A program made the position numbers and the translations under genes. Below the pieces are notes generated by a model. It had not been told where the DNA came from. It saw only the letters and a list, made by a program, of their open reading frames with translations, and did not search any database. Shown here one piece after another: positions 1,483 to 29,788 of a stretch of DNA of 64,000 bases (the stretch's first letter is position 1; every line of letters begins with the position of its first letter). The DNA is from Paramacrobiotus metropolitanus (Eukaryota > Tardigrada > Eutardigrada > Parachela > Macrobiotidae). The stretch covers positions 744,001-808,000 of the forward strand of contig NW_026570245.1 in the NCBI RefSeq assembly GCF_019649055.1, given 5' to 3'.

Positions 1483-1675
1483 GGTCACGGAGTAACGGCA
1501 ACTCACCTGACCTATTACCGGAACCTAAACCGCCGGATATAACTAACCCTTCTGTTAAACTAACTCCAGCTGCTAGAAGGGCAGCGGATCCGGAACCGGC
1601 CGCCCAACCAGCCGCCGGCGGATTCAGGTTTAGCCCCAACCGGCGACTAAGCCACATGACGCTAAAAGTGTGGTA

Positions 1676-4600: not shown

Positions 4601-5119
4601 GCAGGCATCGGAGCCATACTCAGCCCAGACTAAAGGCCAATCGCTTACGCGAGTCGTGTCCTACTTGGAGCTGAGAAGAACTACCGCGTGACTGAATGGG
4701 AATGTTTAGCCGTAGTGTGGGCCGTCCAAAAGTTTAAGCACTACATCGACCATGGACCATTCACCGTAAGGACGGACCACAGAGCCCTGACTAACCTGCT
4801 CAGATGCGAGTCTAACCGGCCCGGCATCAACCCTCGGCTTACTCGATGGGCCCTCGCCTTACAGGGAAGGGATGTCACCATTGAGTACAAGCCCGGCACT
4901 TTCTGCGACAACGCCGACGCGCTGTCCAGATGGCCACTCGAACGGGACGACGACAAGGGCCCACATGAAGAGTTGGACCAAGTCACCAACTTCGAGAATT
5001 ACAAATACGAAATCCCAGCCCGCGTCATAAAGGTGCGGAGGCTGCAAGTAACTGATGAGGATCCCACAGACGACTGGGAAACGTCTTTCCTTCCTGATTG
5101 TAACGCAATCAGCGATTAG
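1676..5119 (+). pseudogene. Pol polyprotein: protease, reverse transcriptase, RNase H (stops at 3860, 4460, 4571, 4631, 5117)
   Basis: A single reading frame spans about 3.4 kb without any frameshift but with in-frame stops TAG 3860, TAG 4460, TAG 4571, TAA 4631 and TAG 5117. From the N-terminus: a retroviral aspartic protease with the active-site string L-D-T-G-A-E at about 2288-2305 and a second G-C-D-Y element near 2511; a long linker of about 400 residues that ends in an acidic Ser/Asp/Glu-rich tract (about 3590-3760); then the RT palm starting near 3775. The RT shows the M-P-F-G-V-C-N-G-P-A-T-F-Q block (about 4042-4080) and the catalytic box as Y-I-D-E (about 4135-4146) where the family has Y-[VI]-D-D. 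RNase H starts with E-C-D-A-S at about 4582 and continues past 4960. The catalytic Asp change plus the stops argue for a dead copy. Confidence 0.85.
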
Positions 5120-5187
5120 AATGAATTCAGCACGGCGGACATACGGGTCATCATGTACCGGCGCCCAAACCGGACGAACCGGACCCC

Positions 5188-6517
5188 GTGGTCCCGCCGT
5201 GTCCAGAAAAAGTTACGGACCGCACCGTGCAAGAACTGCGACGGATGCAACACCGCGATCCAACTTTGGCCAAGAAAATTCACGAGTTGGAACATCAGAC
5301 CGAAATGGATAAACGGTCCAAACTTCCTGAACATTACCAGATAAATAAAGGTATGCTCTACCGACTGACCGAAATTAATGCGAAGCTAGAAAGGAGGCTC
5401 ATCATCCCACTCTTCATGCGGAAAAATATTATCCAGTCCCTCCACGACGGAAAAACAGGGAATCACTTTGGATACCGCAAGACCATTAAAGCCGCCAAGC
5501 TCAGGTACTACTGGGACCGTATGAACAGCGACATACACGACTACATCAACCGATGTCAGACGTGCATCTTCAGCAAAGTACCGCGGCGAGCTACCTACGG
5601 AAAGCTGCAGCCGACCGACGCTGTTGCGCCTTGGTACCGCGTCTTCGCCGACTTCAAAGGACCATTACCGGTGACCGAAACGAAGAAATACCGGTATGTC
5701 GCCGTAGTGGTTGACCAAATGACGAAGTTTACCATAGCCCGGCCGACCAAAACAAATTCGGCCAAGGAGTTTGAAAAGCTCTCCGTCGAGGAAGTTGTCC
5801 TCAAATATGGAATGCCACATACAGTGCACTCCGAGCGGGGCACGCATTTTACGGCAAAATCCTCGCCAAAGTGGCGAAAATTTTTGGCATCGAGCAAACG
5901 TTCGGATCTGCCTATCACCCCGAGGGCCAAGGCCAAGTCAAACGCCAGATGCAAACGATCTGTGATGGAATTTGAAACGTTGGCGGCGCGATGAACATCG
6001 TTGGCACCGGGCCTTACCATACCTGATCTCCGGCATGAATCGTGCCGTTCACCCGACCACTGGATTCAAACCGCACCACATGTTATACGGACGGGAGATG
6101 ACCATACCGCAAGACGTCCTCGCTGGGACCAACGTCCTAGAAACATTCACGACTAACGAACGTTATGTCCAGAGGATGCAGCAGCGCCTGAACCGGCCGC
6201 ATGAAATTGCGAAAACGCGCATCGAAGAAGGCTTCCTACGGGATGCGGCCATCTATAACAAAAAGAAGGACCAGACCGAGTTCAAGAAGCGGGACTTGGT
6301 CACCCTGAAGAACACTGTGGATGACCCGACCAACCCAAACAAGTATGAGGGCATCTACATAATCCTCGGAATTCCTAAGCCAAACACTTACTGGATCCGA
6401 GAGCGGGACACCGGTGAAGAACTCACCGTATGTGTCGATCGCTTGAAGCCGTACCTAAACCCGGACGGCCCAAGTCGCCGAATCACCCGTTCAACAAAGA
6501 AGAGCGGCGACGCTTAA
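5188..6517 (+). pseudogene. Retroelement integrase, frameshifted
   Basis: The N-terminal H-H-C-C zinc domain is readable (His pair in the H-D-G-K/G-N-H-F segment, then C-Q-T-C at about 5554-5565). Next comes the catalytic core with its first Asp in V-F-A-D-F (about 5641-5655). At the second catalytic position the frame reads H-S-E-R-G-T-H-F (about 5821), with Glu where Asp is expected. A frameshift near 5860-5870 moves the rest of the core, including an E-G-Q-G-Q element for the third carboxylate, to another frame. A further shift leads to the C-terminal segment 5972-6517 (P-L-x-Y-G-R-E style region, ends in a basic tail). The entry into this gene from the RNase H frame also needs a shift near 5150-5190. 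Not functional as read. Confidence 0.8.
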
Positions 6518-6739
6518 CCTGAACCCACGGAGTCGGGAAGGTGCAACGACCCGAAAAAGACCGAGTCGGGACGGTGCAAATACAAAGACCAAACAGAGTT
6601 GGGACAAAGTGCAGGACTCCCACAAACCACAGAGCCATGAAGGCGCAAAGATGCGGCTTCTCCGGCAGCTTCTCCCCAGACCAAACTGGAGAAGCTGCTA
6701 AAGAAGCAAAAGCCCGGAAAGGGCCCTTCCAAGAAACTC

Positions 6740-7210
6740 GTGGAGGAGCAGCAAAAGACTCTGAAGATACCTGGCCTTAATGGGCCTGAACCAGAACCAG
6801 AAAACCCGGCCCCAAAGCGCGGCCGTGGCCGGCCTCGGAAGACCAAACCGGACTTCAAGACGCCAGCCTTGACTAAACTCCAAAACGAGCCATTAGCCGT
6901 CATTGATCCTGAGTCAGTACCTGCGGAACCTGAAAAAGCATTGGCCGCACCTGACAAGCTTAAACCCGACCCAAATCTACCAAGTCAGAACCTGCAAGAG
7001 AAGCCGAAAAGACCAAAGTCGCCTAAAACGCCGAAGGCAACCCTTACGGCTCAGCAGGTCCTCAACCGAGGATATCTGCGCGGCCTGATTAAACAAGCCC
7101 TCCAACGCGTGCTGCCTAAACCCCGACCGGGGCAAGCAACACGCGGAGCCCGAACCGGACTCTTGGTCCCAACACATTCCTCAGACCGTCGACCGGCGGA
7201 AGAACTGTGA
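6740..7210 (+). CDS. Pro/Lys/Glu-rich ORF downstream of integrase
   Basis: A 156-codon frame that opens with GTG, not ATG. It is rich in Pro, Lys, Glu and Ala, with a G-R-G-R-P-R-K motif (coded near 6820) that resembles an AT-hook. The style matches the tail of the retroelement. No domain recognised; it may be a remnant of a larger 3' protein that spans several frames in 6.5-8.8 kb (neighbouring frames 6541-6780 and 7324-7740 are of the same type and show no domain). Confidence 0.35.
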   Translation: MEEQQKTLKIPGLNGPEPEPENPAPKRGRGRPRKTKPDFKTPALTKLQNEPLAVIDPESVPAEPEKALAAPDKLKPDPNLPSQNLQEKPKRPKSPKTPKATLTAQQVLNRGYLRGLIKQALQRVLPKPRPGQATRGARTGLLVPTHSSDRRPAEEL

Positions 7211-7825
7211 GACCGTTATAGGCGCATTATGCAGGTCTCAACTGAAAGGCTTGCAGCAGGGCCAGCATTCAGTCGGCCAACCACTCCGTCTCAATCGGAA
7301 ACGGAGACCGACAGTGACATTGAATGGCTGGACCTGCCCGATCCTATTCCCGTACCGGGATTAACGGCACCGCCGGATCATATGGTCGCGCCAGAATGAC
7401 AAATCCATCCAAGACGAACCACACTGGCGCCACCACCAGAAATCGCGGAACGCCTGGAACAGATCATGCGAGCCACAACGGCTCAACCTATTACTACAAG
7501 AACAGGTGCCATGTCCACTATCATATCGCTTGCAGAATCCAGCGAATCGGGCCGCCGAACTCTCTACGACCAATGGCGAGTGGAGGAAGAAGCCCGGCGC
7601 CGAAGAAGGTTATGCGAAGTGGATACAGGTACATTCCAAATGACGACCCCAGTGGCGATACGGGTCAGAACCCTGATCAGAGACGCCAAGGACATCGATC
7701 GTCGCATGGCCAACTAGATAAGGGACCTCAGCCCATTTGACCCGGAAGCGGTCCGGCCGACCCAACAGCAGCAAAGTCTATCCCATCGGATAGCCCTGCT
7801 TAGGGAACTTACACCGAACAACACG

Positions 7826-8509
7826 ATGCCGACCGGCGATTCGTTAGTTGTCGTGGAGCATACTATAAGATGGCTCCGCACATTTGTTGAAGATTACTGG
7901 AAAGTCCAACGACCAGGCCCGGCAACAACGGAGCTCCCAGGTGACTTTGATCCAGTTAACGAATGGCGACCAGACACAGCGGCAGCGCCAACGGCGCCGA
8001 CCACTGAACAAGCATCAGTCGCCTCAACATCGGCGGACCCAACTTTGGTCCAAGCCCCAACAGTGGCCCCAGCACCAACCGTGCCTGGGCCAACATCAAG
8101 CCAGCCTGCGGACACTGCCGTACCCGCTACCGCGGACGACAGTATGGAAATCCCACCGCAGGAGGATGAAATGGACTTGAGTTTGCTCGACAAAACTTTC
8201 GAGCTCTCGCCGGAGAAGCCGACACCAGTCCAACTGACTGGTGCACCGATAAGTCCAATGGCAGTCGATGAGCCAACGGCTTCATCTGACACCACGCCCA
8301 CGCCAAACCGAATTGAAGGCGATACATCAGGCGGCACTTTAGTCGTCCGGCCAACGGCCAGGAAATCGACTGGAGGAAGGACCGCCACACCGGAGCGAAC
8401 GGCCACACCAGCCACAATTGGCGGCCCACAGTCGCCCAGGTTTAAAACGAAGAAACGGACCCCTCCAGAAGCAGAGGAAACGCCTTCGCAACGGTCACTC
8501 CGCACCTAA
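7826..8509 (+). CDS. Thr/Pro/Ala-rich low-complexity ORF
   Basis: Starts at ATG 7826; 227 residues dominated by Thr, Pro, Ala and Ser with repeated A-P-T-V-A and T-P-E-R-T-A-T-P type phrases, so probably disordered. Codon style is that of the upstream pol region. In an overlapping frame, 8418-8771 codes a basic, Lys/Gln/Arg-rich stretch (K-D-K-K-K-Q-E near 8550) followed by Pro/Glu-rich sequence, which looks like the continuation after a frameshift. Function unknown; no family recognised. Confidence 0.35.
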   Translation: MPTGDSLVVVEHTIRWLRTFVEDYWKVQRPGPATTELPGDFDPVNEWRPDTAAAPTAPTTEQASVASTSADPTLVQAPTVAPAPTVPGPTSSQPADTAVPATADDSMEIPPQEDEMDLSLLDKTFELSPEKPTPVQLTGAPISPMAVDEPTASSDTTPTPNRIEGDTSGGTLVVRPTARKSTGGRTATPERTATPATIGGPQSPRFKTKKRTPPEAEETPSQRSLRT

Positions 8510-8718
8510 CCCAGAGGCCGAACGGAACCGCCAAAAGAGACAAGCGGCCAAGGACAAAAAGAAACAAGAGGCCAAGATCGCCCAGCTGGAAAAGCGGCTG
8601 TCAGGCGACGAAGAAGTCCAGGTTTTATCGGACAGCCCGGACAAACCAGGGCCCTCACAACCCTTGGCTGAACCAAGACCACTACCACCCCTGCCATCTC
8701 CCTATCGGGAGGAGGACT

Positions 8719-9828
8719 TTGAACCGGTCCCAGAGGGAGACCCGCCCTCTGAGGAAGTCATGCTCCCATAACCTTGGGATGACGAAGCTGAATTTCCTGA
8801 CCCAGGACCAGAAGCCACATTTTGAAATCCTAGCGGGTTACGTCGATCAATGGGTAGCGACCGCTAGAATTATGAGAAGGGAATCGGGCCGAGACATTTA
8901 CCAGTGTCTCACCAGCTTTCTACGCGCCCGCATGGCATTCGGACAATAATTTAGAGGACTCCCGCTCACGGACCGCGTACTGACGGCACCCTATATGCGG
9001 CGGGTGGTCACTCTTATTCACGACTCAGGCCTACTGGTCCGCACACATCGCGATTGGACTGACATGGCAGAAATCCACGTGGCCCATCGGCCATCTGGAC
9101 TCTCGCGTAGCGGGGATAACTACTTTCAACAAATCTGCCGGACCATTGGGTACTTACATGACCCAAGAGGCTCCACCTTGATGGACATCTCCAGGACAAT
9201 CAACGCCCTTTACTACAAGGGAACGATGGATCCGTGGAAATTGAATGACCAACTAGTGAACGAATTACTAGCACAGGTTAGAGACGGCGTCCTGGAAACC
9301 ACCAATGCCTTTCGCGCTGAACCATTACGCTTCGCTGTCCCGGGATTCATCCCACAGAAGACGCAACGGTCTCTGTATGTGTCGCACGACGTTGGCACTA
9401 GATGGGATCCGAGCAGAAAGAAAGCGGTAGGAGCGAAGGCAAAAGACCTTAAAGGCGGGGCCAAAGAGGCATATAACATGACTCAACTGGCCAAACTGCC
9501 AGGCCCAAAGAATCTGCCGCAGGAAAAGCCTCCGAGACCATCAGTTACTCGAAGGGAGAACGCCGTGCGAAAGGAACAGCAGGAGGCGAACATGCGTGCG
9601 ACAGGCCAACGGCCCTCGCCGCGGGACACTGTGTCGCTGCCTAACGCAGCTGGCCAGTCCCGACCGCCTTCACCGGCCCCATCAGTTATTTCAACGAAGA
9701 GCCGAAAGACTACGGCCAAGAAAGGGCGCGGCAAGAAGTCGCCAACCCCGCCACCTGATGACTCAGATTCTGAGGACTCCAGACCAGAGGACTCAGAATC
9801 AGAAGAAGATGAAGAGGAGGACCAATAG
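8719..9828 (+). pseudogene. Unknown retroelement-associated protein, one internal TAA
   Basis: One frame 8719-9828 interrupted by a single TAA at 8947-8949. The first about 200 residues look globular and helical; the segment around 9160-9330 (L-M-D-I-S-R-T-I ... V-N-E-L-L-A-Q-V-R-D-G-V-L) has the spacing of a helix-turn-helix or winged-helix unit. The tail is Pro/Lys-rich and ends in a long acidic Ser/Asp/Glu run (about 9755-9825). It lies directly before the winged-helix-like ORF at 10009 and shares its style. I do not recognise a family; the fold call is a guess from helix spacing. Confidence 0.4.
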
Positions 9829-10008
9829 GACCAAGAAATGGCATCCCAGAAGTCTGACTCCGAGGACTGACGATGATGACCAAAGCCCTGGCAAACTGAC
9901 CATAAATGTCCCACCGGACTATAGCATGGAAATTCCTCCAGTGGCTATGTTTCGCCACCACCACCAAAGGTGGCCAGAAAATTGCCGGGCGGAGATCCAT
10001 CCAAGAAG

Positions 10009-10659
10009 ATGAAAATCTCCAGTATGGACAAAGGATGGGTATATGTAAAGGCAGCCATACAGGCGTTGTCCCAAACGGGTACAACTTACGCCACAAGGGA
10101 TCTAGCCTACCAGCTCACTGAGAAATGGGAAGGCCCGGGGCTGTCTAAATCCAAAGTGAGGCAGTATGTCCAGATGGCATTCAATGAGGGCGCCATCCTG
10201 CGGACTCACACGCCCAACGGCGATATCTTTTACACGTTCCCACCGGAAAGACGTGACGCGGCCCCTCAAGGATATTGGGAATGGAGCAACGCCATTCTCA
10301 CTGTGCTGACGACCACACAGCACCCTCTTGGCCTCACCCGTGGAGAAATTGCCAACCAACTGCTGGGCCATTACCAACTGTACTACATTGCGCATCACCC
10401 GCAGCTGATTGATGGAACGGAATACGCCTCGGGCAACGGCCGGAACATAGGCTTATTCCCCATCTTTGAAGACGTTAGACACGTCGTCAAGAAGATGCTG
10501 CGTGAACGTTGGCTCGAACAAACCGTTGATGAGCCAGAGACCCAGCAGCGCTACCGAAGGTTGAATGACCCACCAGACCATTACGGCCCTCGTCCTGCCG
10601 ACACCCCCACTTTGGCTTCCACCAAGAAGAAGCAGAAGCGGAAGTCCTACCACCAGTGA
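10009..10659 (+). CDS. Protein with two winged-helix-like segments
   Basis: The open frame begins with GTG at 9970; the first ATG is 10009, giving 216 residues. Two segments have the pattern of winged-helix DNA-binding domains. The first (about 10027-10235) shows A-I-Q-A-L, a T-R-D-L-A-Y-Q-L helix, a recognition-like S-K-S-K-V-R-Q-Y-V helix and a wing ending G-D-I-F-Y-T-F. The second starts near 10285 with A-I-L-T-V-L and T-R-G-E-I-A-N-Q-L-L. The last about 40 residues are basic. Such a gene after integrase is unusual for a Gypsy element. No frame break is seen within it, unlike pol. Confidence 0.5.
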   Translation: MKISSMDKGWVYVKAAIQALSQTGTTYATRDLAYQLTEKWEGPGLSKSKVRQYVQMAFNEGAILRTHTPNGDIFYTFPPERRDAAPQGYWEWSNAILTVLTTTQHPLGLTRGEIANQLLGHYQLYYIAHHPQLIDGTEYASGNGRNIGLFPIFEDVRHVVKKMLRERWLEQTVDEPETQQRYRRLNDPPDHYGPRPADTPTLASTKKKQKRKSYHQ

Positions 10660-10808
10660 CCCGGCATAGAACTTGCATAGGGCATAGGGGGGAACGGGTT
10701 GTAAAATTCATAGGGACGTAAATTTATAGGGCGTAATTATCATAGGGACCAGTCCTAGAAGTAGACCTCCCCAGTTTTCTGTATGTTTAATTTCCGTTAC
10801 AACAGAGA
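10660..10808. other. Short A+T-rich spacer with repeated ATAGGG
   Basis: Non-coding gap in which CATAGGG/ATAGGG occurs about six times in 80 bases (10675-10755). No function is assigned. Confidence 0.4.
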
Positions 10809-11378
10809 ATGGGATTCACCCCGCAGCAGAAGTATGAATCGGGATGCGCGGACTGCAAACGGAACAGTTTGGACTTGTCCGGCCGGAGGGAAAACTCTCG
10901 ACGAGAGTACCTACCCTGCGCGTACCACTTGCGACCCGGTTTTCGCGACGAAAGCGAACGAGCCTATTGCTTCTAACTAGAAGTGGTGAGAGGCAACTTC
11001 GACGCGTACTGCCACATGACCAGCCGAGATGGACGCCATTTGATCCCCCTACTGAGGGATCATGAACAGATAGAGATCCACGATCTCTATATGCAACGCA
11101 GCGGCGACAGACTCCCCGGCTGGAGCAGCATGGAAACACAACCGCCAACTCTTACCCAATCGGCATTAGAGAAGAAGGCAGAGCGCGATTATGAACGGAA
11201 CAGCCGGCCTCGTAGCACGGGTGCCGACCGTTTATCAGGGCGGCCGTCCCGAAAATACATGACCAGTCACATCAGCAACAGCCATCGCCAGGCCCTCAGC
11301 CCGACGGGCGTGGGGCGTCAACTTCGGCGACATATGACCAGTTTATGGCTGCCATCGACAACCAGATGGTGGACCTAG
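10809..11378 (+). pseudogene. Cys/His-containing ORF with one internal TAA
   Basis: From ATG 10809 a frame runs to 11378 with one TAA at 10974-10976. The first 55 residues hold C-A-D-C, C-A-Y-H and a final Cys-Phe, a spacing compatible with a zinc-binding ribbon; beyond the stop the same frame continues with Y-C-H-M and a charged region. Another frame (11345-11764) overlaps its end and codes a Gln/Arg/Pro-rich protein of the same GC-rich style. Function unknown; likely part of the decayed retroelement tail. Confidence 0.35.
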
Positions 11379-11764
11379 TGGCCAAACAGCTGATGGAAGA
11401 AGGACTGCTGGATGCCCTAAAGGGTCAGTATGACTCGACGCGTACTCAACAGCACGCGCCAGCGCCATTGGCACCGCTACCGCGGCAGCCAGACGACTTG
11501 CGCCACTACATCGAGACTCGCAACCAGGACCAGACCAGCCAACAGAACCGTGGCCGTCCTCAGGAGCTCCAGCCACAAACGCGGACCACGCCCGGAAAGC
11601 GGAATGAGGATGAAAGCCTGGTTGTTTCCCGCACTAACAAGAGGCCTGAGCGAACCGTTAGCTGGCCTAGAGTTGACTCTGAAGGTGCACGAGAAGTACG
11701 GGCGTACGATCATGTTTTCTCATCCAGGGCGCTCTGTTCAACAACCATACGTGGGATTCACTGA
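11345..11764 (+). CDS. Gln/Arg/Pro-rich ORF at end of retroelement block
   Basis: Starts at ATG 11345, 139 residues. The first about 30 residues can form an amphipathic helix (D-L-V-A-K-Q-L-M-E-E-G-L-L); the rest is Gln, Arg, Thr and Pro rich and probably unstructured. It overlaps another open frame (11430-11816) of the same composition. No family recognised, and which frame was coding is uncertain. Confidence 0.3.
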   Translation: MAAIDNQMVDLVAKQLMEEGLLDALKGQYDSTRTQQHAPAPLAPLPRQPDDLRHYIETRNQDQTSQQNRGRPQELQPQTRTTPGKRNEDESLVVSRTNKRPERTVSWPRVDSEGAREVRAYDHVFSSRALCSTTIRGIH

Positions 11765-11935
11765 TGTGGCCCGAATCTTGGACGACAGCTTTAAAGCGCA
11801 AGCTCTTATTGTTTAATCGTACTTCTCATATTTCTTAACACAATAAAATTGTTTGTTTGTTGTTGTTGCTATTATTCTTGTTTGTTTCCTACTATCTCCT
11901 TTGTTATGCAAAAAAAAGGCTGAAAACGCCATTTT

Positions 11936-11990
11936 TTGCGACAGTTTCAGCAGTGAAGTATATAAAGTCTTCTTGCTGACACTGTCGCAA
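11936..11990 (+). promoter_or_regulatory. TATA box at the centre of a 15-bp inverted repeat
   Basis: Arms 11936-11950 and 11976-11990 are reverse complements at 14 of 15 positions (core TTGCGACAGT / ACTGTCGCAA). The spacer holds TATATAAA at 11959-11966, centred within one base of the dyad axis at 11963. The ATG of the TBP-like gene is at 11994, so a start site 25-30 bases after the TATA box would give an almost leaderless mRNA. This looks like a core promoter overlapped by a symmetric operator; which protein binds it is unknown, and autoregulation is inference. Confidence 0.65.
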
Positions 11991-11993
11991 GTA

Positions 11994-12599
11994 ATGCGTT
12001 CAGTCATGGAGATCTACAACGTTATTCTGGCGGTGCAGCTCAACAAGGAAGTTGATCTTCAGCAGGTTTTAGAGGTTTTTGGGAAACATGCTACGAAGGT
12101 GAAAAATTTTAGCGCAGTTAATATCAGACTTATAGACCAGTCACATACATTCTGCCAGATTTTCCAGAATGGCAAGGCAATCGTAATAGGTGGTAAGTCC
12201 ATAGAAGAATCGAAAAGGCTATTAAAAGAGTATCTGAGAATGTTGACTCTAAATTGTATCGACGTGACTATTAAGGAGCGCTTTGTGGCAAATATAGTCT
12301 GTACGTACGCTTACAGTGAAATAATAAACTTAAATAAGCTGTATAGCCAAATTTTAAAACAAAAGCCAACAAGTGTTGCATTCTTCTATGAACCTGAGCT
12401 TTTTCCAGCGATCAAACTACGGTTCCCGTTATTGAAAACTACCGTTAACGTTTTCCATACTGGAAAGTGTGTAGTTCTCGGAGCGAGATCACTGTTGCAG
12501 ATTCAACGCACAATTGAACAAATTAAAAACCTCCTTGAAAAGTATACCACTAAGTCTATAAAAGGGGAGAAATCTGAACATTTCAGAAGCACCATTTGA
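11994..12599 (+). CDS. TATA-binding-protein-like protein encoded by the Polinton
   Basis: 201 residues from ATG 11994; the frame is open further upstream but has no earlier ATG. It has the two-repeat saddle layout of TBP. Repeat 1 (about residues 7-90) has an N-terminal strand and helix, then F-x3-F-Q-N-G-K at 53-61 and G-G-K-S-x-E-E-S at 66-73. Repeat 2 (about 97-184) has Y-E-P-E-L-F-P at 132-138, V-F-H-T-G-K at 153-158 and V-L-G-A-R-S at 161-166. These match the TBP signatures E-P-E-L-F-P, F-x-[ST]-G-K and G-A-[KR]-S. Phe 53, 57, 137 and 154 fall at or near the places where TBP inserts Phe into DNA. It is strongly diverged from cellular TBP, is uninterrupted, and is the first gene of the capsid-side cluster. 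TBP is not among the usual Polinton genes I know. Confidence 0.82.
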   Translation: MRSVMEIYNVILAVQLNKEVDLQQVLEVFGKHATKVKNFSAVNIRLIDQSHTFCQIFQNGKAIVIGGKSIEESKRLLKEYLRMLTLNCIDVTIKERFVANIVCTYAYSEIINLNKLYSQILKQKPTSVAFFYEPELFPAIKLRFPLLKTTVNVFHTGKCVVLGARSLLQIQRTIEQIKNLLEKYTTKSIKGEKSEHFRSTI

Positions 12600-12637: not shown

Positions 12638-13303
12638 TTAGCAACAAAAAGCCAGGAAAAATTTAAAAGGGAAAAGCTGAGTTTTGATTTTCGCTTTAAA
12701 ACTCCATGCACCATTTATATTTCTGGGCCAACTATGTCAGGAAAATCGACTTTTACAGTGAAACTCTTGCAAATTCTTACGGAGAGCTTCAATCAACCAC
12801 CTGTTAGGATAGTATATGCTTATGCTACGTGGCAAAATGCCTTCCAGGATTTTGAAAAAAATATTGAACTTATTAAAGGTCTTAGACCCATCTTAGAAGA
12901 TGAGAAATATTTTGACAAAGACGTCCCGAGCCTGCTAGTTTTAGATGATCTAATGGAAGAAATTGCTGGGAACCCTCAGTGTTTTACGATTTTTATTCGC
13001 GACGTTCATCATAAAAATGTTTCTGTAATTTTCATATCTCAAAATTTATACAAGCAAGGAAGAAGCATGCGTGATATTGCTTTGAATTCGCAGTATTTGG
13101 TAATTTTTAAATCAGTTCGCGACGTTCAGTAAGTTAAAACACTTGCACGTCAGTTAGGTATGCCACACATGCAGGAGGTCTATCGAAAGGCTATAAAGGA
13201 ACCTTTTGGATATTTACTGATAAAACTTAGACCCGAAGCTCCAGACGATGTTCCCCTTCAGTCGCACGTGCTTGAGTATAGACGAATATACGTAGAACAA
13301 TGA
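12638..13303 (+). pseudogene. Polinton packaging ATPase (FtsK/HerA-type), stop at 13130
   Basis: P-loop ATPase that would pump DNA into the capsid. Walker A reads G-P-T-M-S-G-K-S-T (coded about 12725-12751); Walker B is L-L-V-L-D-D near 12937-12954; a following S-Q-N motif (about 13039) fits the sensor region. The frame is open from 12638 without an upstream ATG, and the first Met (12734) is inside Walker A, so the start is lost or the 5' end is shifted from the frame 12600-12667. An in-frame TAA at 13130-13132 splits the C-terminal quarter, which otherwise stays in frame to TGA 13301, overlapping the next ATG by the bases ATGA. Confidence 0.85.
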
Positions 13304-13620
13304 ACCCAGAAGATATTTTTCGACTTATTGAAGCGTTAAAGCTACTGACACCACGTCAGAGAAGAAGCTTTGTTCAGCTGGCAACTAAACAACAAATAAG
13401 CGCATTCGCAGAAGCCTGCTTGAACCTAGTTAAGCAACCCACTGGTCTTAGCAAAGTTGATTTAGCTCGGGCTCGAAAACATTCTTCAAAAATCAAGCGT
13501 CTAGCTGACCGCAGTACAGACCGTTCAAAGAAACGTAAAATATTACAACAAAAAGGCGGATTTCTCAACGTTTTGCTACCAGTGTTATGTACATTAGCCT
13601 CAACTTTTCTAACAAAATGA
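13300..13620 (+). CDS. Small basic Polinton protein with QKGGF motif
   Basis: 106 residues. ATG 13300 overlaps the ATPase stop as ATGA, and its own TGA (13618) overlaps the next ATG the same way. A helical N-terminal half is followed by a Lys/Arg-rich stretch (R-S-K-K-R-K-I-L) and Q-Q-K-G-G-F, then a hydrophobic C-terminal segment of about 15 residues. This layout is typical of a small conserved ORF seen beside the ATPase in many animal Polintons (known family pattern); its role is not established, and a virion core or membrane-active part is possible. The frame is intact. Confidence 0.65.
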   Translation: MNPEDIFRLIEALKLLTPRQRRSFVQLATKQQISAFAEACLNLVKQPTGLSKVDLARARKHSSKIKRLADRSTDRSKKRKILQQKGGFLNVLLPVLCTLASTFLTK

Positions 13621-15316
13621 AAACGAACGTTTTAGTTGCCGAAACTGAGTTTCTAAAACTGAAGCATACTCGGGAAAGTGTGCCTGCGCCGACTGCTTGG
13701 AAAAAGGCTCAAGAGATCGATCATGAAATTACACAGCATCTCATGGCGAAGGCCGCTTTTGATTACCAGCGCTTAAACAATGCGGGTAACGCTCCAACCG
13801 CGACTCCGTTGTTGGAAACGGTGCCATTTGAGACTACCGCTCCCAATATATCACCCATAATGATTTATAAAAGTATACAAGCTCATTCTACAGGTTTTCT
13901 TAAAGATCAATATAGTCAGGCAAGTCCAAACGTTACCCATCAAGCTGTGCAGGCTGTTCCGACATTTCAGGAACAACGTAATCAAGCAACAGCCCCACCG
14001 TTAGTTGAATACAAGTGTGTCAAAGTACCATCACAACCAATTGTACAATATGTACAAGTGCCTAGTGAGCCGCAAATACAAGTTTTTCCAAGCAAACTGG
14101 TGGTCAAACACGTTTATCGAAAGCCAAAAAAACCACCTTTGGTTAAAAAAGTCCATGTTAGACGCATTCCAAAATCCGATAGCCCTTAAGAAGCTGCAAT
14201 AGAATACGCTCCTACTCTACCTAGTATTCCGATAGTAGAATTTACTGCCGATGGTGTGTTAGAATATCAAGTACCTGACAATGGATCTGTTCCGGCTTTG
14301 GAAAATAACCAACTAGCCATTGAAGGAATGAAAGAGCTGGCTGTTAGACTTAGAAACTTAGAAACCAAAGCTTACTTAGAAACCAATGACGCATATACAC
14401 AACACAAACATTTTCGCTCCAAGTTCAAACGCCGAAAAATTATTTCCGTTAATGTTGGCGACCAACATCAAATTGATTTTTTGGATTTTCAAAATTTGCT
14501 AGTTACAACGATGGCTTTAAATACATTCTTATGTGCATCGAATTCTTTTCTCGTTATGCATGGGCTGAGCCGGTTAAATCAAAACGGCCTACTGATATTC
14601 GCGAAGCGCTTTTGAAAATTTACAAGAGTGATTATCCTCCATTACGTGTTCAAAGCGATAATGGTAAGGAATTTGTTGGTAAAGACAGGGGTAAGCTTTT
14701 TGAAGAGTTTAACGTTACTTTTTTTACAACAAAAAACGATGACGTGAAGTGTGCGATGGTTGAACGTTTAAATCGTACAATTGAGGAGCGGTTATACGTG
14801 TTCATGACCGAAAACAAGACATACCGATTCATAGATGTCCTTCCTAAGGTTTTATCCGCATACAATTCTACAAAACATTCGGCTACAGGTGTAGCCCCGA
14901 AAACAGTAGGTGCTGAGGAAGCTGAGCAAATTCTTCAGAAGATTTGATGAGCAGAAAGATATGAAAAATTTAAAACCAGCATTTGCTGTTGGTGATCATG
15001 TACGTTTGGCCAAAAAGAAACAAACTTTTGAAAAGGGTATAAGACTCGTTTCACAGAAGAAATCTTTAAAATAACCCACACTACACGGAGTGGGAGCCAT
15101 TACCTTTACACTGTCGAAGATTTAGCCGGCAAGCCCGTGGATGGTAAGTTTTATCCGGAAGAGTTATCTAAAGTTGCAATGAAAGAAAAGTCATATCACA
15201 GGATCTCCAGGATATTAAGGGAAAGAAAACATAAAGGAAAAGTCCAATACTTAGTACGTTGGTATGGATACGGTCCAGCTTATGACTCTTGGGAAAACAA
15301 AGAAGATTTAGAATGA
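13617..15316 (+). pseudogene. Pro/Val-rich protein running into chromodomain integrase; stop and three frameshifts
   Basis: From ATG 13617 a frame of about 190 Pro/Val/Gln-rich residues (repeated V-P-S-x-P) ends at TAA 14187 and continues open into an integrase. The integrase part has the Y-T-Q-H-K entry motif, the first catalytic Asp in Q-I-D-F-L-D (about 14470), a frameshift near 14495, the second Asp in Q-S-D-N-G-K-E-F (about 14650), the Glu in V-E-R-L-N-R-T (about 14760), a shift near 14940 and another near 15040. The last 40 residues (about 15190-15313) are a chromodomain with Y-L-V-R-W and W-E-N near the end. The catalytic D-D-E is present. The usual zinc N-terminus of Polinton integrases is not visible, so the join to the Pro-rich protein may come from a deletion. 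Confidence 0.75.
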
Positions 15317-16054
15317 GTTTTTACATGACTTTGACGTCTTCGGCGTCAGAGGGGTTATACCCTGATAACTCTCCAGGCAAGTTTACAACGCTTCTCGCTA
15401 GACCTATAGACTTGGACGGTGCGGGGGAAGTAGGTCTGTCAGAAATTATGCTACCTCCTATGCGTATAAAGTTTAGTACGGGATTATCTATTATGATCTC
15501 GAAGCATGGTATGCCACGAACAATTTCTAGATTTATCGATAAACATGTGTTTGAGGATGAAAATCATTTACTTCATACGGTTAACAAACTGTTGAGGATA
15601 GACGAGGAGGATAGGGACTCGAAAACCTTCGGCCAAATAATGGTAATTGGTCAAGCAGCTCAGTTACACATCACACCCGGCGTCGCTTTGAATTTTAGGC
15701 TCCGAATACGTGCGCGCGCTAGGCATACTGCAGCAATACTCATATAACAGTGCACATAGTCTGACTCATACTTTATATCCGGGACAGCATAATCGTCTCG
15801 TGCATGTCTACTGTGATGTGATTACACATGGGTTGGTGGGTGATTCAATGGTGCCCTTACTACGCACCATATTAACTCAAGCTCACTCGTTTAGAGAGAC
15901 AGTAATCCGTTTTGAGAATCCACATTATATGCCGTTAGCCTACCATACATTTGAAACTATAGAAATAGCACTGCGGGATGATTTAGGGAAAGAAGTACTC
16001 TTTCATCTAGGTACATCATTAATTAAACTTCACTTTCGACCAAAGAAGCATTAA
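15313..16054 (+). pseudogene. Polinton minor capsid (penton-type) protein, frameshifted near 15.70 kb
   Basis: Begins at ATG 15313, which overlaps the chromodomain stop as ATGA. The N-terminus has the family look: M-S-F-Y-M-T-L-x-S-x-A-S, then Y-P-D-N-S-P-G-K-F-T and R-P-I-x-L-x-G-x-x-E-V-G-L-S-E-I. The frame ends at 15747, but the expected second half continues in another frame (about 15700-16054), which includes H-V-Y-C-D-V-I and F-E-x-I-E-I-x-L-R-D typical of the jelly-roll end. A single indel in the CGTGCGCGCGCTAGG stretch near 15708-15722 would explain it, so an assembly error there is possible. Confidence 0.8.
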
Positions 16055-16055
16055 A

Positions 16056-16439
16056 ATGGTTCTACAGGAATTAAAATTTGACGAGCACCGCTACACCCAG
16101 ATCTTTACCAAGCAGCATGGGTACGGTATGCCATATGATCGTGGCGCGCCCATGAAAGGTGGTAGTTTCTGGGGTCGCGTGATTGGCTTTGCAAAGGGTT
16201 TATTCAGCAAAGCTGCACCGCATATAAACAATTTAATTGCAACTGCACAACCTCACATGAAAACGATGGCCAGCAAGGCTGTGGAATCAGTGATCGATAA
16301 AGCTGTTGAGCGTGTTAGCGAGAAATTACGCAACACAGCTCAACAACAGGGGTCGGCTATTAAGGGTCGTCGTCGAAAGAGAATGATCAAAACAACGAAA
16401 CGTCAACGCGCGATAGACGCTATAAAAGACAAACTGTAA
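16056..16439 (+). CDS. pVI-like membrane-active/core virion protein
   Basis: 127 residues, intact. After a short N-terminus come G-G-S-F-W-G-R-V and G-F-A-K-G-L-F-S-K-A-A-P, the amphipathic pattern seen in Polinton proteins compared to adenovirus pVI. A long amphipathic helix follows, then a strongly basic tail (G-R-R-R-K-R-M). It starts two bases after the penton stop and ends three bases before the major capsid ATG, so it sits in the virion gene cluster. A role in membrane breakage or DNA condensation is inferred from the family. Confidence 0.65.
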   Translation: MVLQELKFDEHRYTQIFTKQHGYGMPYDRGAPMKGGSFWGRVIGFAKGLFSKAAPHINNLIATAQPHMKTMASKAVESVIDKAVERVSEKLRNTAQQQGSAIKGRRRKRMIKTTKRQRAIDAIKDKL

Positions 16440-16441
16440 CG

Positions 16442-17785
16442 ATGGCTCTTATTGAAGCTGGCTCAGAACCCTTCATGCTGTTGAAAAGTCATTTGTTTTA
16501 TCTTCCAGCTAAGCTTGCGGAAAGGTGGAACACACATGACTATGACTTGGGTCCTTCTCAAGCCGTGACCGACGATTCAAACGATATTGTATTCACGATT
16601 TCACCGTGTCAAACCGAGCTTATCAGTTTAGCTGATATTAGATTTTCATGTGATTTATACGTTACTAACTCTTCTGGTGCTCACCCTAAAGAAAAAAACT
16701 GTCTTGCCCCGATTAACAATATTTTGCATAGTTTGTTCCAGTCAGTAACGGTTTCATTAGGAGGGCGCAATATAACCGATAACAGCCCTTTGTATTATAT
16801 TCGAGCGTACATTGAATCCCTCTTGGGTTTCACTGTTCAGGCTCAGAACAGTCAGTTGACCCTCTGCGGATTTGCGTTAGACACTGACCTTGAAAAAGGC
16901 CCGTTATACACAAATGAAATAACTGGAGCAACAACGTTTCATAGTAAGGGACTGAAACGCGTAGAACATGGCTGCAGACTTGTCGTCCGTTGCAGTTGTC
17001 TGGTAAACTGCACTGCGACTTGTTCCAACAAGACCGACCGCTAATTCCTGGTGTCGAGTTGAGCATTAAACTGATACGAAACAGAGCAAATCTTTGTTTT
17101 CTTGCTGATAGTGATCTAGCTGCTCCAAAACATTTTGCCATTCGAAACCCAAGCTAAAAGTTCGAAAGTATAAGCCTGCGCCAGACTTTTTAGCAGCTAT
17201 GACCAAGCAACTAGTCACAACTAATGCAAAATACCATATTGAACGGGTCGCTTTAAGACAGACCACAATGCAAACAGGTCAGCAGCAACTATCCTGAACG
17301 AATATTGTCATTGGACAGCTACCCAAGGTTATGTTCTTTGCGATGTCACCCAATCGCTCGTTTGTGGGCGAATTTAAATCGACACCGTTCAATTTTCATC
17401 TTTTCCACATATCTAACTTAAGTGCAGAAATTGATGGACAGCTTTTTCCTACGCGGGGTATAACCTAGATTTCCAAAACGGTGCGTGGATTGAGGGGTAC
17501 GAAGGGTGGTTAGATACTCTAGAGCGGCTGCATGAAGGCCACGGTGAACTACCATTTGACAGACCCGTATTTAACAAGGGCGGCTTTAATATTTTTGGGT
17601 TTGACTTCACTCGCGGCCACACGGGCAGAGGAGGGTTGTCGTTAATAAGGCAAGGTAATTTAAATATCAATGTTAAATTTGCAAAACCACTACCCGAAGG
17701 TATACTTTGCGTAGCTATGATGGTCTTCGATAAAATTATCGAAATTAACAACAATCGCCAAGTACTTTTCGACTTTGCGCCATGA
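16442..17785 (+). pseudogene. Polinton major capsid protein (double jelly-roll), several frameshifts
   Basis: The first about 180 residues are in one frame from ATG 16442, including the start M-A-L-I-E-A-G-S-E, a Y-L-P-A-K segment and S-L-G-G-R-N-I-T. The frame fails near 16.96-16.98 kb. Capsid-like sequence goes on in a second frame to about 17155 (P-G-V-E-L-S-I-K-L), a third to about 17295 and others after that. The C-terminal jelly-roll is clear from about 17460 to TGA 17783 (N-K-G-G-F-N-I-F-G-F-D-F-T near 17575-17612). At least four frame changes are needed. The last stop overlaps the protease ATG as ATGA, so the ancestral gene order is preserved. Confidence 0.8.
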
Positions 17786-18283
17786 ACAGCCTACAAATAG
17801 AATCAGCGCTAAAACAAGATCCTAACGTTCGCGACATTTTTGTCGGAGTATTCGCAAGCGATACACTACCAGTAAAAGAATTTCCAGGTGCATACATATC
17901 AAACACCCAACCGTCAGGTGCGGCGGGTGAACACTGGGTAGCATTCTTCTGTATAAAACCAGGAACGATGGAGGTTTTTGATTCGTACGGGAAAAATCCC
18001 GGTGATTATTCAGATAACATTAAAAAATGGATAGACGATGACTTTGTCATAATGTCGAACAAGTGAGCGACAAAACAATGATAGCACCGTATGCGGTCAA
18101 TATTGTATGTTCTTCGTCTTACTACGCTGCTATGGGTTCTCATACAAAGATGTTATGTCAGCTCTCACTAAGCATAAAGGGGTTAACGACAAATTTGTAT
18201 GCAAATTCATCAACAAGTTCTTCCGACTAAGGACTGTAGTCCGTGACGCAACATTTATACACGACCTTATAAGAAATGGTTAA
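17782..18283 (+). pseudogene. Adenain-like cysteine protease (maturation protease), frameshifted near 18.06-18.08 kb
   Basis: The catalytic triad of the adenovirus-type protease can be seen: His in G-E-H-W-V-A (about 17930), Asp in F-D-S-Y-G-K (about 17975), a Gln/Asn region, and Cys in V-C-G-Q-Y-C (about 18090). The first part ends at 18066; the Cys-bearing half is in a different frame (about 18079-18283). The break falls near an AAAACAA run, so one indel is enough. The gene would cleave virion precursors. Its end overlaps the next small ORF by 8 bases. Confidence 0.8.
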
Positions 18284-18476
18284 ACCAACAGCAAAAAAAA
18301 CAGCATCGGTATTTTTTGCAGTACTGGTTACCATCCTGCTGGTAGTTTTCGATACTCTAGAAATTGTTTCCTATTTTGTCAAGTCCAACAATCGTACGCA
18401 GTTGGAAGAATCGAGAAAAATTACGAAAGAGGTGTTGGATCTATCGGTCAGTGACGAAACAATGCAAACAGAGTAG
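18276..18476 (+). CDS. Small single-pass membrane protein
   Basis: 66 residues, intact. A basic start (K-P-T-A-K-K-T) is followed by a hydrophobic segment of about 20 residues (about residues 11-31, rich in Val, Leu, Phe) and a polar C-terminus. It is the last plus-strand gene before the convergent PolB gene. No family recognised; small membrane proteins are common in this position in viral genomes. Confidence 0.5.
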   Translation: MVKPTAKKTASVFFAVLVTILLVVFDTLEIVSYFVKSNNRTQLEESRKITKEVLDLSVSDETMQTE

Positions 18477-18518
18477 GTTTTCCCCTTTCTTTTATTTATT
18501 TTTCCCCACCCTATTTTT

Positions 18519-21500
18519 TTATCGCGTGCCAAAAGGCAGCGTTGTAAAATCATCCAACATGATGCGTTTATCGTAAACAAGTTTCAATTTTTTAGCCAGC
18601 TGAACAGTATTAACTTCTTGGGGTTTTCCATTCCGTTTGCTGCATTCTGGGTATACAACCTGGACATGTCCATCCACGCCATCCAGTAGTCGCTTCAGCT
18701 GGTTGAAATCCAAGGCTTTTCCAGTCCGCGTCAGCTCCTTCGTGACCGAGTCCCAGTCCAGAATATCTTCCGTGAATCCGTTCTGCATCATATCTTTTAC
18801 ACTTAATACGCCCCGTATCGGTTTCGTAGCTGTACACTTCTGGACCGCAGCACACGAATTTGACGATATAATTCTCGCCAGCTTTTATCTGGTTATCCCA
18901 ATCACCAAGAATACTGACGGTATCAGGAAGCCAGTCACCAGGACGATGGATGAATATCACGGAATCCGTGTCGTAGTGCAAGAGGCGTTCGCCCAATTTT
19001 TCCATAAGGGACAGCAGAATGAGTCGCGCATGACTGGTGGTGAAAGCGGCAATGACATCATTCGTGCCATTGATACCTTCATTGAAGTCGTCCACTTTCG
19101 AGTGTGTTACCATCAGACACGTTGGGTTTACGCCATAGACATCATGTATTTCAATAACTTTTGAACGACACAGATCAGAATAGCGTTTGGTGTCGTAAAC
19201 AAACTCCGTTGAGTTCATATCGCAACTTTGACCGGTTTTACCCCAAAGACTGTTCACCACAACCTTGGTAGTGCTCTTCTTTCCAGCATCAAAAACCATA
19301 GCATCAGGATCCAAGGAGATGCCTTCGCGCTCTTTAACCATCCGAATAAAATTGGCTTTCTTTTCTTCGGTATCGCACCACGCAGGCCAACCACAGGCTT
19401 CCATTTTTTCTTTCAAAAACTTGTCCATGTATGCCGCAAAAAGTTTGGTGTCAGACTGCGTCCAGTGCCACAATTTCATACATTTCCACAACACGATACC
19501 TCATATTGATCGCATGATGTAGGTCTGGTGTAGCCCAAACCCCTTCGAAACAGCGCTCATCGTCTGTATGCTTGCAGCGACTTGCCGCTTTTTCCATCGC
19601 GCATTTTTTGCACAGAACAAACATAAGTTTGCCGTTTATCGTGGCCGGCAAGACTGGATACAGGCATTGATCAGGAGCCGCTACTTTACAGAAGACAAGG
19701 CCAAAACATTCTTTGGCATCCTTGAAATTGGATACGATTACTTCAGGATGGCCAACCGGATACGCCTTGGTCTTATTCACGAATGGGTATAGACTGACAA
19801 TGTCATAGTGTTTAATTTCTTCATTGTCCTTTGCTTGGTAATACAATCGACTCGCATTCGTTCTGCCTCCTGTGAAAGCGTCACGAAGATTCATTGGCTC
19901 CCGAATGTTCATATTCAATAGAAATGCGGCAATATCGGGATCTTGTCGTTCCTTAAGCCATTCACAGCTCCATTTCACCTCCACAATGTACCCCTGACTT
20001 TCGAGGAAGCGTTCGCGTTCCTGGAACTCCTCGTAGACTTCACGCATTTTCTTTTTGGAGTATGGTACAACATCGTTCTCTTCGGTGCAGAAAGGATGTC
20101 CATGGAAGACGCAGCCGTTGTACTCGTAAACGGTTTGTGTGTCCTCGTCGAAACCGTCCACGAAGTATCGCCCAATTTTAACTACTTTTCCGTTGCGACC
20201 ATGTTGTATACGGCCATTTGCACTCATGTTCTCCCACTCCAGCCATTGCGTGGCTTGAATACTAGTCCGTCGGTTTCTGTGCGGTCCGTGACTGGATAAA
20301 GCTGCAACTTTGTTCTCCTGAAGGTGAAACATTCGCCAGTACCGGTAACAGGCCGAAGGCATGGTCATACTTTCCATAGGATTCAGCGAAGTCAGAGCTT
20401 GGTAATCGCTGATAAACTTTAGCGCACAAACGCGCAAAACCGTCACATCGTTCGAGCAGTATGTCATCATCGGCTCGCGAAAATTGAACACCCCATTGGC
20501 AGCCGTTTTAGCTTCAGCATCTTACTTCAGGAAGTCTTCTTTTTGCTTTTTTCGCATTCCATCAATCGTGTACTGATCCGGTTCTGGCCAGGGCAAATCA
20601 GTTTTGTCCCTATTTTCCGGCTTGTTAAATCGGTGTGGGAAGTCGCCTTTCTGAACTTCGATTTTCAAGCCAACCGCTTTTGGTAACTGGTTCAACTTCA
20701 AAGCCAGAAAGTTGAGTGTATCAGGCGACCGGATCCCCAGCTTACGATACCGTAATTCCAACAGCTGCGTACCACGTTTTATGACCTCCACTCCTTTTAA
20801 ACCATTGTCCAACATGTACTTCAGGACAAAATGTCCATCATAACCCCGAAAATTGTGCGCTATGATAGTAAATCCCCGATGCTTTTCTTGAAACAACCAG
20901 CGCCCAAATGCTTCGTCAACTTCCGTATTCATTGGTTGACCATCTTCCGGATAACGTACTTTCGAACCATCAGCATACTGCGCAACGATGCACGTGGGCA
21001 CGTGCCCATTTACTGGATCGTTGTAGGTTTCGTAATCGAAGAAAATGTATTTCATTTCATCATGCTGCCATTCTGGCGATGGCTTGAGTGGTTTTATGTA
21101 GCACAAATGCGTGGCTTTGAGGAAAAAGCCGTTGCACGTGTTGCAGTAAATTCCGCCTCACTGGTGTCTTACGTTTTTGCCACGACTGGAAAGATTCACG
21201 AAAACACCGCATGTCTGGCAAATGAACATTTGCTCACAATAATTCTTTCCATTTTTCCTCTTCTTCTTATGGATCTCGTAGCACTGTTGGTTGTGGAACC
21301 CACGGCTGCATTCAGTGCAGTTAATAGGATTCTCCACCAGACAGTCGCTGTTGTTGCGGTAGCAGGACCTACACTTCCCCTCGCAATGATGACGTTCTTT
21401 ATGATGATACGTTCGATCGCAATCATTGCAGAAGTAGGGTGAGCAGTAGAACCCAGTAGCCGTGGTGACAAGGTCAAAATGCTCATTATCCAACAACAAG

Positions 21501-21763
21501 AAAATCTCTTGCATGTCGGTCGTCTTGCGTTCTGGCACCCGCGCAATTATCATATCACCTTGATTGGCCGAAATGACTTTGATTTGGAACTGTGGGAAGG
21601 CTTCCTTCTGCAGAACTTCCAGGTCATCAAGGTCGCAGTAACGACCAGGCGGCAAGAGGCACTCTTCCATTATCTTTACAGCTTCGTCCTCCAAATTCTC
21701 GGTGCGGTTTGCGCGTATATAGTTGCTCCATTTATACTTATTGCTCCATTTATACTTATTCAT
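18519..21763 (-). pseudogene. Protein-primed family B DNA polymerase (PolB), two stops and two frameshifts
   Basis: Reads from about 21763 down. The N-terminus (to 21158) has paired Cys/His clusters (F-C-N-D-C, H-H-C-E-G-K-C, I-C-Q-T-C) as in Polinton PolBs. A TGA at 21158 and a TAA at 20522 interrupt an otherwise constant frame. Exonuclease motifs: F-D-Y-E-T-Y (about 21030), A-H-N-F-R-G-Y-D (about 20850), Y-C-S-N-D-V (about 20455). Polymerase motif A is D-I-V-S-L-Y-P (about 19800); after a frameshift near 19.46-19.48 kb, motif B is K-V-V-V-N-S-L-W-G-K-T-G (about 19240) and motif C D-T-D-S (about 18965). A last shift near 18.80 kb leads to the C-terminus ending at 18519. All catalytic Asp motifs survive, but the gene cannot be read through. 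Confidence 0.9.
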
Positions 21764-21938
21764 TCACCATACGGATCTGGCGTTCTATCATGTCGGCTGG
21801 TGGATCCTGGTTCCTCAAACATCAGCACGTCAAGCATGACAGCAACCGTTTCAAGAAATCCATGAATAAGTACTTCGAAATCATGCGTCAGGCGAAATTT
21901 TCCCAGAAACAGCGCGGCGGGTAAGCATAGGTTATTCT

Positions 21939-22331
21939 TCACGCGAACGGATACAATGGATTCTTTGACCAGTTGGAAGAGACCTGAGAAATCGGGTAGC
22001 GACTCATCTCGAGCCACATTTCCACCAGCTTGCGGCGCTGGGGATCTTCATACTGCCAGTCGTCTAGTTGCGCAAGAGCAAGAGCGGCAGCCAAAAATCC
22101 CGGGCTTCGCTGATCAACCTGACCCAGGTGCAGCAAAGCCGTTGTCAGAGTCTGTTCATCATGTTCATTGAACTCACTGGGATTAGCTAGCATGTGATCA
22201 AAGGCTGCTTGATCCTCGACTGTTAACTGGTACGCATTATTAACCTGCTGCTCTTCATCAACATCCATCCACCGCTCACTAAGTATGGCCGCAATGGCCG
22301 CATGATCAGAAGCAGACAGCTGATAAGTCAT
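21939..22331 (-). CDS. Unknown Polinton-end protein with an internal repeat
   Basis: The first ATG is at 22331, giving 130 residues; the frame is open to 22400 but only through a TTG. Two similar segments occur near the N-terminus: Q-L-S-A-S-D-H-A-A-I and Q-L-T-V-E-D-Q-A-A-F, each continuing as a helix, which suggests a duplicated helical unit. The whole is acidic and helical (A-L-A-L-A-Q-L, L-V-E-M-W-L-E-M). A TATA box lies about 55 bases upstream. It is the outermost minus-strand gene of the element. No family recognised. Confidence 0.5.
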   Translation of the reverse strand: MTYQLSASDHAAIAAILSERWMDVDEEQQVNNAYQLTVEDQAAFDHMLANPSEFNEHDEQTLTTALLHLGQVDQRSPGFLAAALALAQLDDWQYEDPQRRKLVEMWLEMSRYPISQVSSNWSKNPLYPFA

Positions 22332-22382
22332 TTTCGCCAGACGTGAAAGATTGAAATGAAGAAAATTCTTGTGCCGCGCAAC

Positions 22383-22390
22383 TTTTATAG
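22383..22390 (-). promoter_or_regulatory. TATA box for the minus-strand gene at 22.3 kb
   Basis: On the minus strand the sequence reads CTATAAAAG ahead of ATG 22331. It is the second clear TATA box at an outer end of the Polinton and has no obvious flanking dyad like the one at 11.96 kb. Confidence 0.45.
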
Positions 22391-22506
22391 ACGAGCTCAA
22401 TTACTGTAGCATGTGCTTATTGGTCTGATGTTTTCTGTAATGCGATGCAATTGGTCAACAGTGTTTTAGCCACACCTTTGGGCGTTTCAGTGGGCGCGAG
22501 TGGATA

Positions 22507-25910: not shown

Positions 25911-25949
25911 TTTTTAAATTACTCGATTTTTAAACATTTGTTTTGTTTT

Positions 25950-29776: not shown

Positions 29777-29788
29777 CCTCGGTCTTTC

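Follow-up and report, generated by a model that had tools for sequence, protein, structure and literature searches.

The open reading frame at positions 11994 to 12599 of the window (the whole stretch of 64,000 nucleotides analysed here) belongs to a Polinton (Maverick) of Paramacrobiotus metropolitanus and encodes a TATA-binding protein (TBP), which in cells normally marks the start of gene transcription. On balance we favour a role in transcription, in which this Polinton protein is predicted to seat on the TATA boxes of the element and would likely recruit host TFIIB and RNA polymerase II for the element's own genes. The element and its surroundings in the window comprise the following features:

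1009–11660, plus strand: retrotransposon-type sequence (aspartic protease, H2C2, rve integrase), approximate extent, outside the Polinton
11661–11816, plus strand: 3′ remnant of an upstream gene that encodes 148 aa in copies C129 and C151 and matches no family
11936–11990, no strand: palindrome with the TATA box between its arms, TTGCGACAGT-n-TCAGCA ... TGCTGA-n-ACTGTCGCAA
11959–11967, plus strand: TATA box TATATAAAG, with the first ATG of the TBP gene 35 bp downstream
11994–12599, plus strand: TBP gene, 201 aa, open frame
12638–13132, plus strand: packaging-ATPase-like gene, P-loop visible, shorter than in most other copies
13300–14189, plus strand: two element genes, a 106-aa gene and a portion of a 365-aa gene
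14190–15316, plus strand: integrase in broken pieces, rve core at 14477–14947 and chromodomain at 15032–15316
15313–16439, plus strand: two genes without a family match, of 247 aa and 127 aa in copy C129
16442–17785, plus strand: major capsid protein gene, broken in the window
17749–18283, plus strand: adenain-like cysteine protease gene
18519–22400, minus strand: DNA polymerase B (PolB) gene of viral/organellar type, broken pieces
22382–22389, minus strand: TATAAAAG, TATA before PolB
29753–30563, plus strand: IAP-like accessory gene in two frames, BIR at 29753–30394 and RING at 30042–30563
29769–29776: TATATAAA at the IAP-like gene, in the window copy
30608–30762: right terminal inverted repeat, outermost bases AGAAGATATAGCGC read inward; the element ends at 30762

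An open TBP frame in a degraded Polinton

In the window-type layout, TBP, ATPase, two small genes, integrase, capsid genes and protease lie on one strand and PolB on the opposite one. The window copy is degraded, with PolB, integrase and capsid in pieces and TBP open. In the window, the integrase pieces match rve (PF00665; E 2.3e-8, with 1.1e-13 for the C129 copy) and Chromo (E 2.2e-10), two pieces of the polymerase match DNA_pol_B_2 (PF03175; E 1e-21 and 7e-10), a family B polymerase of the viral, presumably protein-primed type, and the IAP-like gene contains BIR (E 1.9e-31) and RING (E 1.3e-10) domains. Matches are weak for the ATPase-like gene (Pox_A32; E 0.0011 in the window and 0.0049 in another copy, both under the curated cut-off) and for the protease (Peptidase_C5; E 0.04 in the C151 copy, below the cut-off). 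Homologues of the capsid gene carry the name F54H12.2-like. The structure model of the homologue P0122, which has 69% identity to the C151 copy, matches the double jelly-roll capsids of Sputnik, mavirus, iridovirus and PBCV-1, with Foldseek E values of about 2e-15 to the Sputnik and iridovirus proteins and 3.8e-13 to that of mavirus; the identity of the window capsid gene is based on these names and this model. Searched by sequence, the capsid protein gave no match among phage records and one chance row in the PDB. A structural role is assumed for the two genes at 15313–16439 from their position only.

The terminal repeats are seen by comparison between copies, and the left repeat has been lost from the window copy. 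Its right terminal repeat and the left end found in the C129 copy are, in inverted orientation, 93% identical over 157 bp. At the left, retrotransposon-type sequence occupies the place of the element's end: in ten other window-type copies the match to the window starts no earlier than about 11661, and to the left of that point all ten share sequence together with the start of the 148-residue-type gene. An open reading frame at 11421–11816 cannot, for this reason, be all retrotransposon, since element sequence begins at 11661. The preliminary description had presented the TBP gene as the first gene of a Polinton; membership in the Polinton stands, and first-gene status does not, the left end being missing here and a further gene preceding TBP in the other copies. 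The six copies with left open reading frames listed have an ADP-ribosylglycohydrolase-type frame on the minus strand, which in the C151 copy is fused to BIR in one frame; the C129 copy shows the same two parts. This left-end gene (L098:2-922 and L021:2-640), which the window lacks, combines in the fused C151 form two host-directed types of function within a single Polinton gene. Loci L021 and L022 (C13:231000-250999) contain the element's left part twice, in inverted order and with 99.8% identity across 3.6 kb.

Several other features of the region were noted. Inverted repeats of 456 and 272 nt (96–97%) at 25942–29625 lie between PolB and the IAP-like gene; they were considered as element termini and rejected, being internal to an element that ends at 30762. 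A stretch of about 40 bp is common to window positions 18471–18522 and 30607–30654 and to L097:1134-1173, with AATAAA on the coding strand; located at the 3′ ends of PolB, the IAP-like gene and a left-end gene, it is perhaps a common 3′-end signal. Outside the right end of the element, a second BIR/RING (IAP-like) gene is found at 34264–34755, and UDP-glucuronosyl/glucosyl-transferase domains at 52286–53341 and 55588–56412 probably belong to host genes.

The preliminary reading of the intact 201-residue frame as a TBP is borne out by the protein itself. The Pfam TBP family (PF00352) scores above its curated cut-off in the window protein, P0001 (90.4 bits against 22.9), in two stretches that correspond to both repeats, and the predicted structure model of P0001, a check that the preliminary description had proposed, gives the saddle fold of TBP. 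The nearest relatives start at a position that aligns with a second ATG, located at 12006 (residue 5, MEI). All four DNA-kinking aromatic positions and both groove asparagines are kept in P0001 (F39, F57, F137, F154, N9 and N100), positions identified through their human equivalents and the roles of these in TBP–DNA structures. Across alignment A1, composed of 18 element-type TBPs (P0001 and 17 fetched sequences), N100 and F154 are present in all 18 rows, F137 and F39 in 17 each, Tyr or Phe at position 57 in 18, and N9 in 15. The EPELFP stirrup, which we take to be the TFIIB contact, is complete in P0001, and the TFIIB-contact residues vary across the 18 proteins (E133 in 10, E135 in 15, L136 in 12). 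Position 55 is Gln in 18/18 rows of A1 and Leu in 8/8 cellular rows of alignment A4, where 31 of the 34 public-assembly TBP rows also have Gln; the cellular Leu presumably faces the DNA, as in published TBP–TATA structures. The TBPs of loci L037 and L038 have long C-terminal tails with repeated W-containing acidic motifs, the L038 frame reaching 439 residues.

These residues bear on a different use of the protein, host shut-off, in which the element TBP would divert TFIIB (or TFIIA, TAFs, BRF) from host promoters and act more as a competitor than as an initiator. The retention of the stirrup in P0001 is compatible with such a decoy, the uniform replacement of the DNA-facing Leu by Gln in the 18 element-type TBPs would fit altered DNA use, and further genes of host-directed type occur in the elements (BIR/RING and ADP-ribosylglycohydrolase-BIR). 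However, the kinking aromatics and groove asparagines are conserved as well, neither of which a pure decoy would need, and TATA motifs stand at the presumed unit heads of window-type elements (see below). We regard the decoy as quite unlikely and retain initiation at element promoters as the preferred reading.

Recurrence, descent and selection

A search of the same genome with P0001 gave 151 matches, and a search with PF00352 gave 493 first-look candidates, the best 150 of which were scored. Linkage to Polinton genes was assessed with 150 of the 151 TBP matches, leaving out 7 of 150 integrase rows that were second fragments of listed genes. After merging, the matches form at least 137 TBP, 150 ATPase and 142 integrase loci, each search representing the best 150 or so candidates. 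At least 108 of the 137 TBP loci have an ATPase or integrase match within 15 kb (ATPase at least 97, integrase at least 84), against a chance expectation of at most about 7 of 137, a comparison among loci that are related and not independent. The gene thus recurs in other Polintons of this genome. The preliminary description had named a host paralog outside the element as the finding that would count against its reading; the copies are instead linked to Polinton genes at these 108 or more loci, and cellular TBPs group apart from them.

The position of the gene within the element, by comparison, is not constant: at least four gene orders occur. Among the 137 loci, the ATPase lies downstream on the same strand at 0.4–1.0 kb in 58 and at 1.3–1.6 kb in 13, is divergent in 9, lies 4–12 kb upstream in 14 and is otherwise placed in 3; 40 have no ATPase match among the best 150 listed. 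Neither an ATPase nor an integrase match falls within 15 kb of 29 of the 137 TBP loci, again among the best 150 matches listed. In their P0001 search scores, several of the 29 resemble the class that includes C189 and C60:887625. The ATPase matches of these two come near the bottom of the best 150, and for several of the 29 loci the missing neighbour is likely explained by an ATPase outside the best 150 matches listed. Some TBPs of A1, such as those of L044 and L047, are among these 29 loci. At L052, L068 and related loci, TBP directly follows a conserved gene with no Pfam match, and in L052 and L068 the two share an open frame.

The proximity of TBP to ATPase and integrase in several gene orders could be taken to indicate a DNA-bending or targeting factor, with TBP helping the integrase to choose promoter regions, or serving replication or packaging, instead of transcription. 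Yet the partner shifts with the architecture (ATPase downstream, divergent, or 4–12 kb away), and such a role leaves the TATA motifs inside the element unexplained. We give this explanation little credence, less than the decoy, and continue to prefer transcription of element genes.

Whether the elements bring their own TFIIB was also considered and rejected: TFIIB-family matches in the genome number six, fall at three loci and show no multiplied gene. Among the scanned element ORFs, no member of an RNA polymerase or TFIIB family was found.

A tree that includes cellular TBPs, another of the checks originally suggested, separates the element proteins from them. In an 81-row tree, 11 cellular rows lie on one side of a branch with support 100/98, and 23 tardigrade element-type TBPs and 47 public-assembly TBPs lie on the other; the same split is found in a 30-row tree with support 99/98. 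We picked the sequences in A4, in A6 and in the trees by hand from longer match lists, and the labels "cellular" and "animal-type" for P0050, P0057–P0064, P0098 and L075 are our reading of the sequences and the tree. The approximately unbiased (AU) test did not reject joining the whole element group to the host TBP and P0064 (p = 0.097), and rejected, barely, joining the window class alone to two animal-type TBPs (p = 0.047). The best PF00352 match in the genome is a cellular-type TBP at C4:406165-406662, in which the N-terminal region occupies a different frame, as an intron would cause, and which is separated by about 330 kb from the closest of the ATPase and integrase matches listed on its contig. 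Between 11 window-type copies (55 pairs), the median dN/dS is 0.198 at a median dS of 0.30, indicative of purifying selection.

The selection result argues against the view of TBP as a passenger, that is, a captured host gene without function for the element. TBP is cellular by origin, and the p value of 0.097 leaves an animal origin of the whole group unrejected, as a passenger would have it. Against this stand a dN/dS of 0.20, the retention of TBP in many subfamilies and across no fewer than four gene orders, the lack of a special link to the host TBP (p = 0.047 for the window class with the two animal-type TBPs), and the split-frame, distant state of the cellular-type gene on C4. A mere passenger is the least probable of the explanations that we weighed, and very improbable in itself; a TBP that works for the element remains our preferred reading.

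TATA boxes, gene junctions and a palindrome

TATA motifs were counted within 120 bp upstream of each gene in those of the 11 window-type copies in which the gene start was found. The motif is present at the presumed heads of transcription units: before TBP in 11/11 copies (window included), which share ancestry and are not 11 independent cases, before the upstream gene in 9/10, before PolB in 6/6 and before the capsid gene in 9/9. Counts for genes within the run are 1/10 for the ATPase, 0/11 for the 365-aa gene, 0/10 each for the integrase, the penton-position gene and the 127-aa gene, and 0/9 for the protease. The 106-aa gene has a TATA site in 7/9 copies, inside the ATPase frame. The capsid motif also lies inside the preceding reading frame and is absent in the relative L076, and on account of this loss it was rejected as a conserved promoter. 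Beyond the window-type copies, TATA precedes TBP in 6/7 subclass representatives (shuffle chance 0.02–0.19 each), and the looser pattern TATAWA does so in 19/20 further related copies. In other architectures, where TBP follows another gene or starts beside a divergent ATPase, the motif was found before TBP in 0/15 loci within 91–130 bp, so that self-regulation through such a box cannot be general.

Operon-like overlap of genes through ATGA is unexpected in an animal genome. Such start–stop overlaps occur at four (C129) and five (C151) gene junctions in the same-strand run, which may for this reason be read as one transcript. The operon-like layout with ATGA junctions is seen at L015:2118-5968 and in the same stretch of L023.

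The TATA box of the TBP gene is situated at the centre of the palindrome in the window and in the L033 and L034 types. Folded as DNA, the palindrome yields −18.6 kcal/mol (z −6.7), and 87.9% of cells pair across 17 distinct rows. Both sides have changed in 9/20 pairs, and the covariation score is 0.335 versus 0.057–0.098 with the partners slid. Of five measures of covariation, one, the number of pair types, is not above shuffles (294 of 500). Conservation is poor at the four innermost pairs. Among the 16 outer pairs, 35/272 cells are non-Watson-Crick, comprising 25 G-T, 2 A-C and 8 others, and this excess of G-T over A-C hints at pairing as sense-strand RNA.

The palindrome at 11936–11990 might then be an RNA hairpin in read-through transcripts, with a part in processing, termination or control of TBP translation, and TATATAAAG in its loop might be only partly a promoter. 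The 25 G-T cells set against 2 A-C speak for such a hairpin. The bias rests, however, on few independent changes, the 5′ arm would be absent from any RNA started at this TATA box, and elements of the L035–L037 types have TATA before TBP without the palindrome. We consider the hairpin unlikely, if somewhat less so than the decoy, and prefer the view that the palindrome around the TATA box may let the element regulate its own TBP.

Proposed role and comparison with known systems

On the model that we favour, element TBP would be made during the active phase of the element and would bind TATA boxes at the presumed heads of the element's transcription units, and its kept stirrup would recruit host TFIIB and thereby host Pol II. 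TBP made early could raise expression of its own gene and of the integration and capsid genes behind it; because TBP heads a tight same-strand gene run, a positive loop of this kind is the simplest picture. Such a loop might free the element from host TBP/TFIID and its regulation. The preliminary description had foreseen either control of host transcription initiation or a private promoter system; the arrangement of TATA motifs in window-type elements would fit promoters belonging to the element. A broader proposal, which we put forward tentatively and hold to be less probable than the role of the window protein itself, is that a whole diverse branch of animal Polintons, present also in environmental sequences beyond this tardigrade, has a private initiation system, in which a TBP with the DNA-contact residue altered from Leu to Gln recognises the TATA promoters of the element, borrows TFIIB and Pol II from the host, and self-regulates via a TATA box centred in a covarying palindrome.

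If true, this would mean that even small elements can have under their own control the opening step of initiation, in which the promoter is chosen. The element TBPs would offer natural divergent variants for studying the surfaces needed in contact with DNA and TFIIB, and the presumed promoters of the element carry TATA motifs that could be mapped in tardigrade RNA data. The Polinton TBP branch would also be a candidate route of TBPs into larger viruses.

Database searches place the protein among distant relatives. As a single sequence, P0001 found no match among 5.8 billion proteins, and a search of the same proteins with the 18-row alignment gave 310 matches, the best 120 of which were listed. 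IMG/VR scans with P0001, A1 and A3 gave no match, PHROGs had nothing for TBP better than E 0.05, and a GTDB scan gave a single archaeal TBP among the matches listed. The 47 public-assembly TBPs that group with the element TBPs in the tree (P0002–P0048) are known as proteins only. One of them, P0022, and a capsid homologue, P0162, come from the same source and from contigs of equal length (20,036 bases), and so are probably on one contig.

Vertebrate Mavericks, as described in one report (PMC8097293), likewise have PolB, ATPase, integrase, capsid genes, protease and terminal inverted repeats, with two gene modules on different strands and accessory genes at the ends. They differ in that the core named there (polymerase, ATPase, PM, PZ, protease, capsid proteins, PW and integrase) is without TBP; TATA, TBP and TFIID are unmentioned in the main text of that paper, as are TATA and TBP in PMC11071308, PMC11071296, PMC10120064 and PMC4028283. 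In a paper on tardigrade transposons (PMC11071193), Maverick is named once and TATA is unmentioned. We found no report of TBP in a Polinton or Maverick in the open-licence literature.

With cellular TBP (host C4:406165-406662; human 1cdw) the window protein shares the two-repeat saddle, the kinking aromatics and the EPELFP stirrup. It is distinct in being about 28% identical to the host TBP fragment, in being encoded in one open frame inside an element, and in having Gln for Leu at position 55. Among viruses of other kinds, phage records gave haloarchaeal virus TBPs only: those of HRTV-9 and HJTV-2 are similarly borne by a dsDNA virus, with 25% identity over about 90% of P0001, and belong to archaeal viruses, another kind of carrier. 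The listed BFVD fold matches are viral, many of them from giant viruses, at 5–22% identity to the window TBP. TBP is reported to be present in 59% of mirusvirus genomes (PMC10132985), and elements of putative mirusvirus origin in a green alga to carry it sporadically (PMC10675990). The TBPs of giant viruses and mirusviruses are, like that of the window, virus-encoded and of the same fold; their carriers are large viruses, whereas the carrier here is an animal Polinton of about 20 kb.
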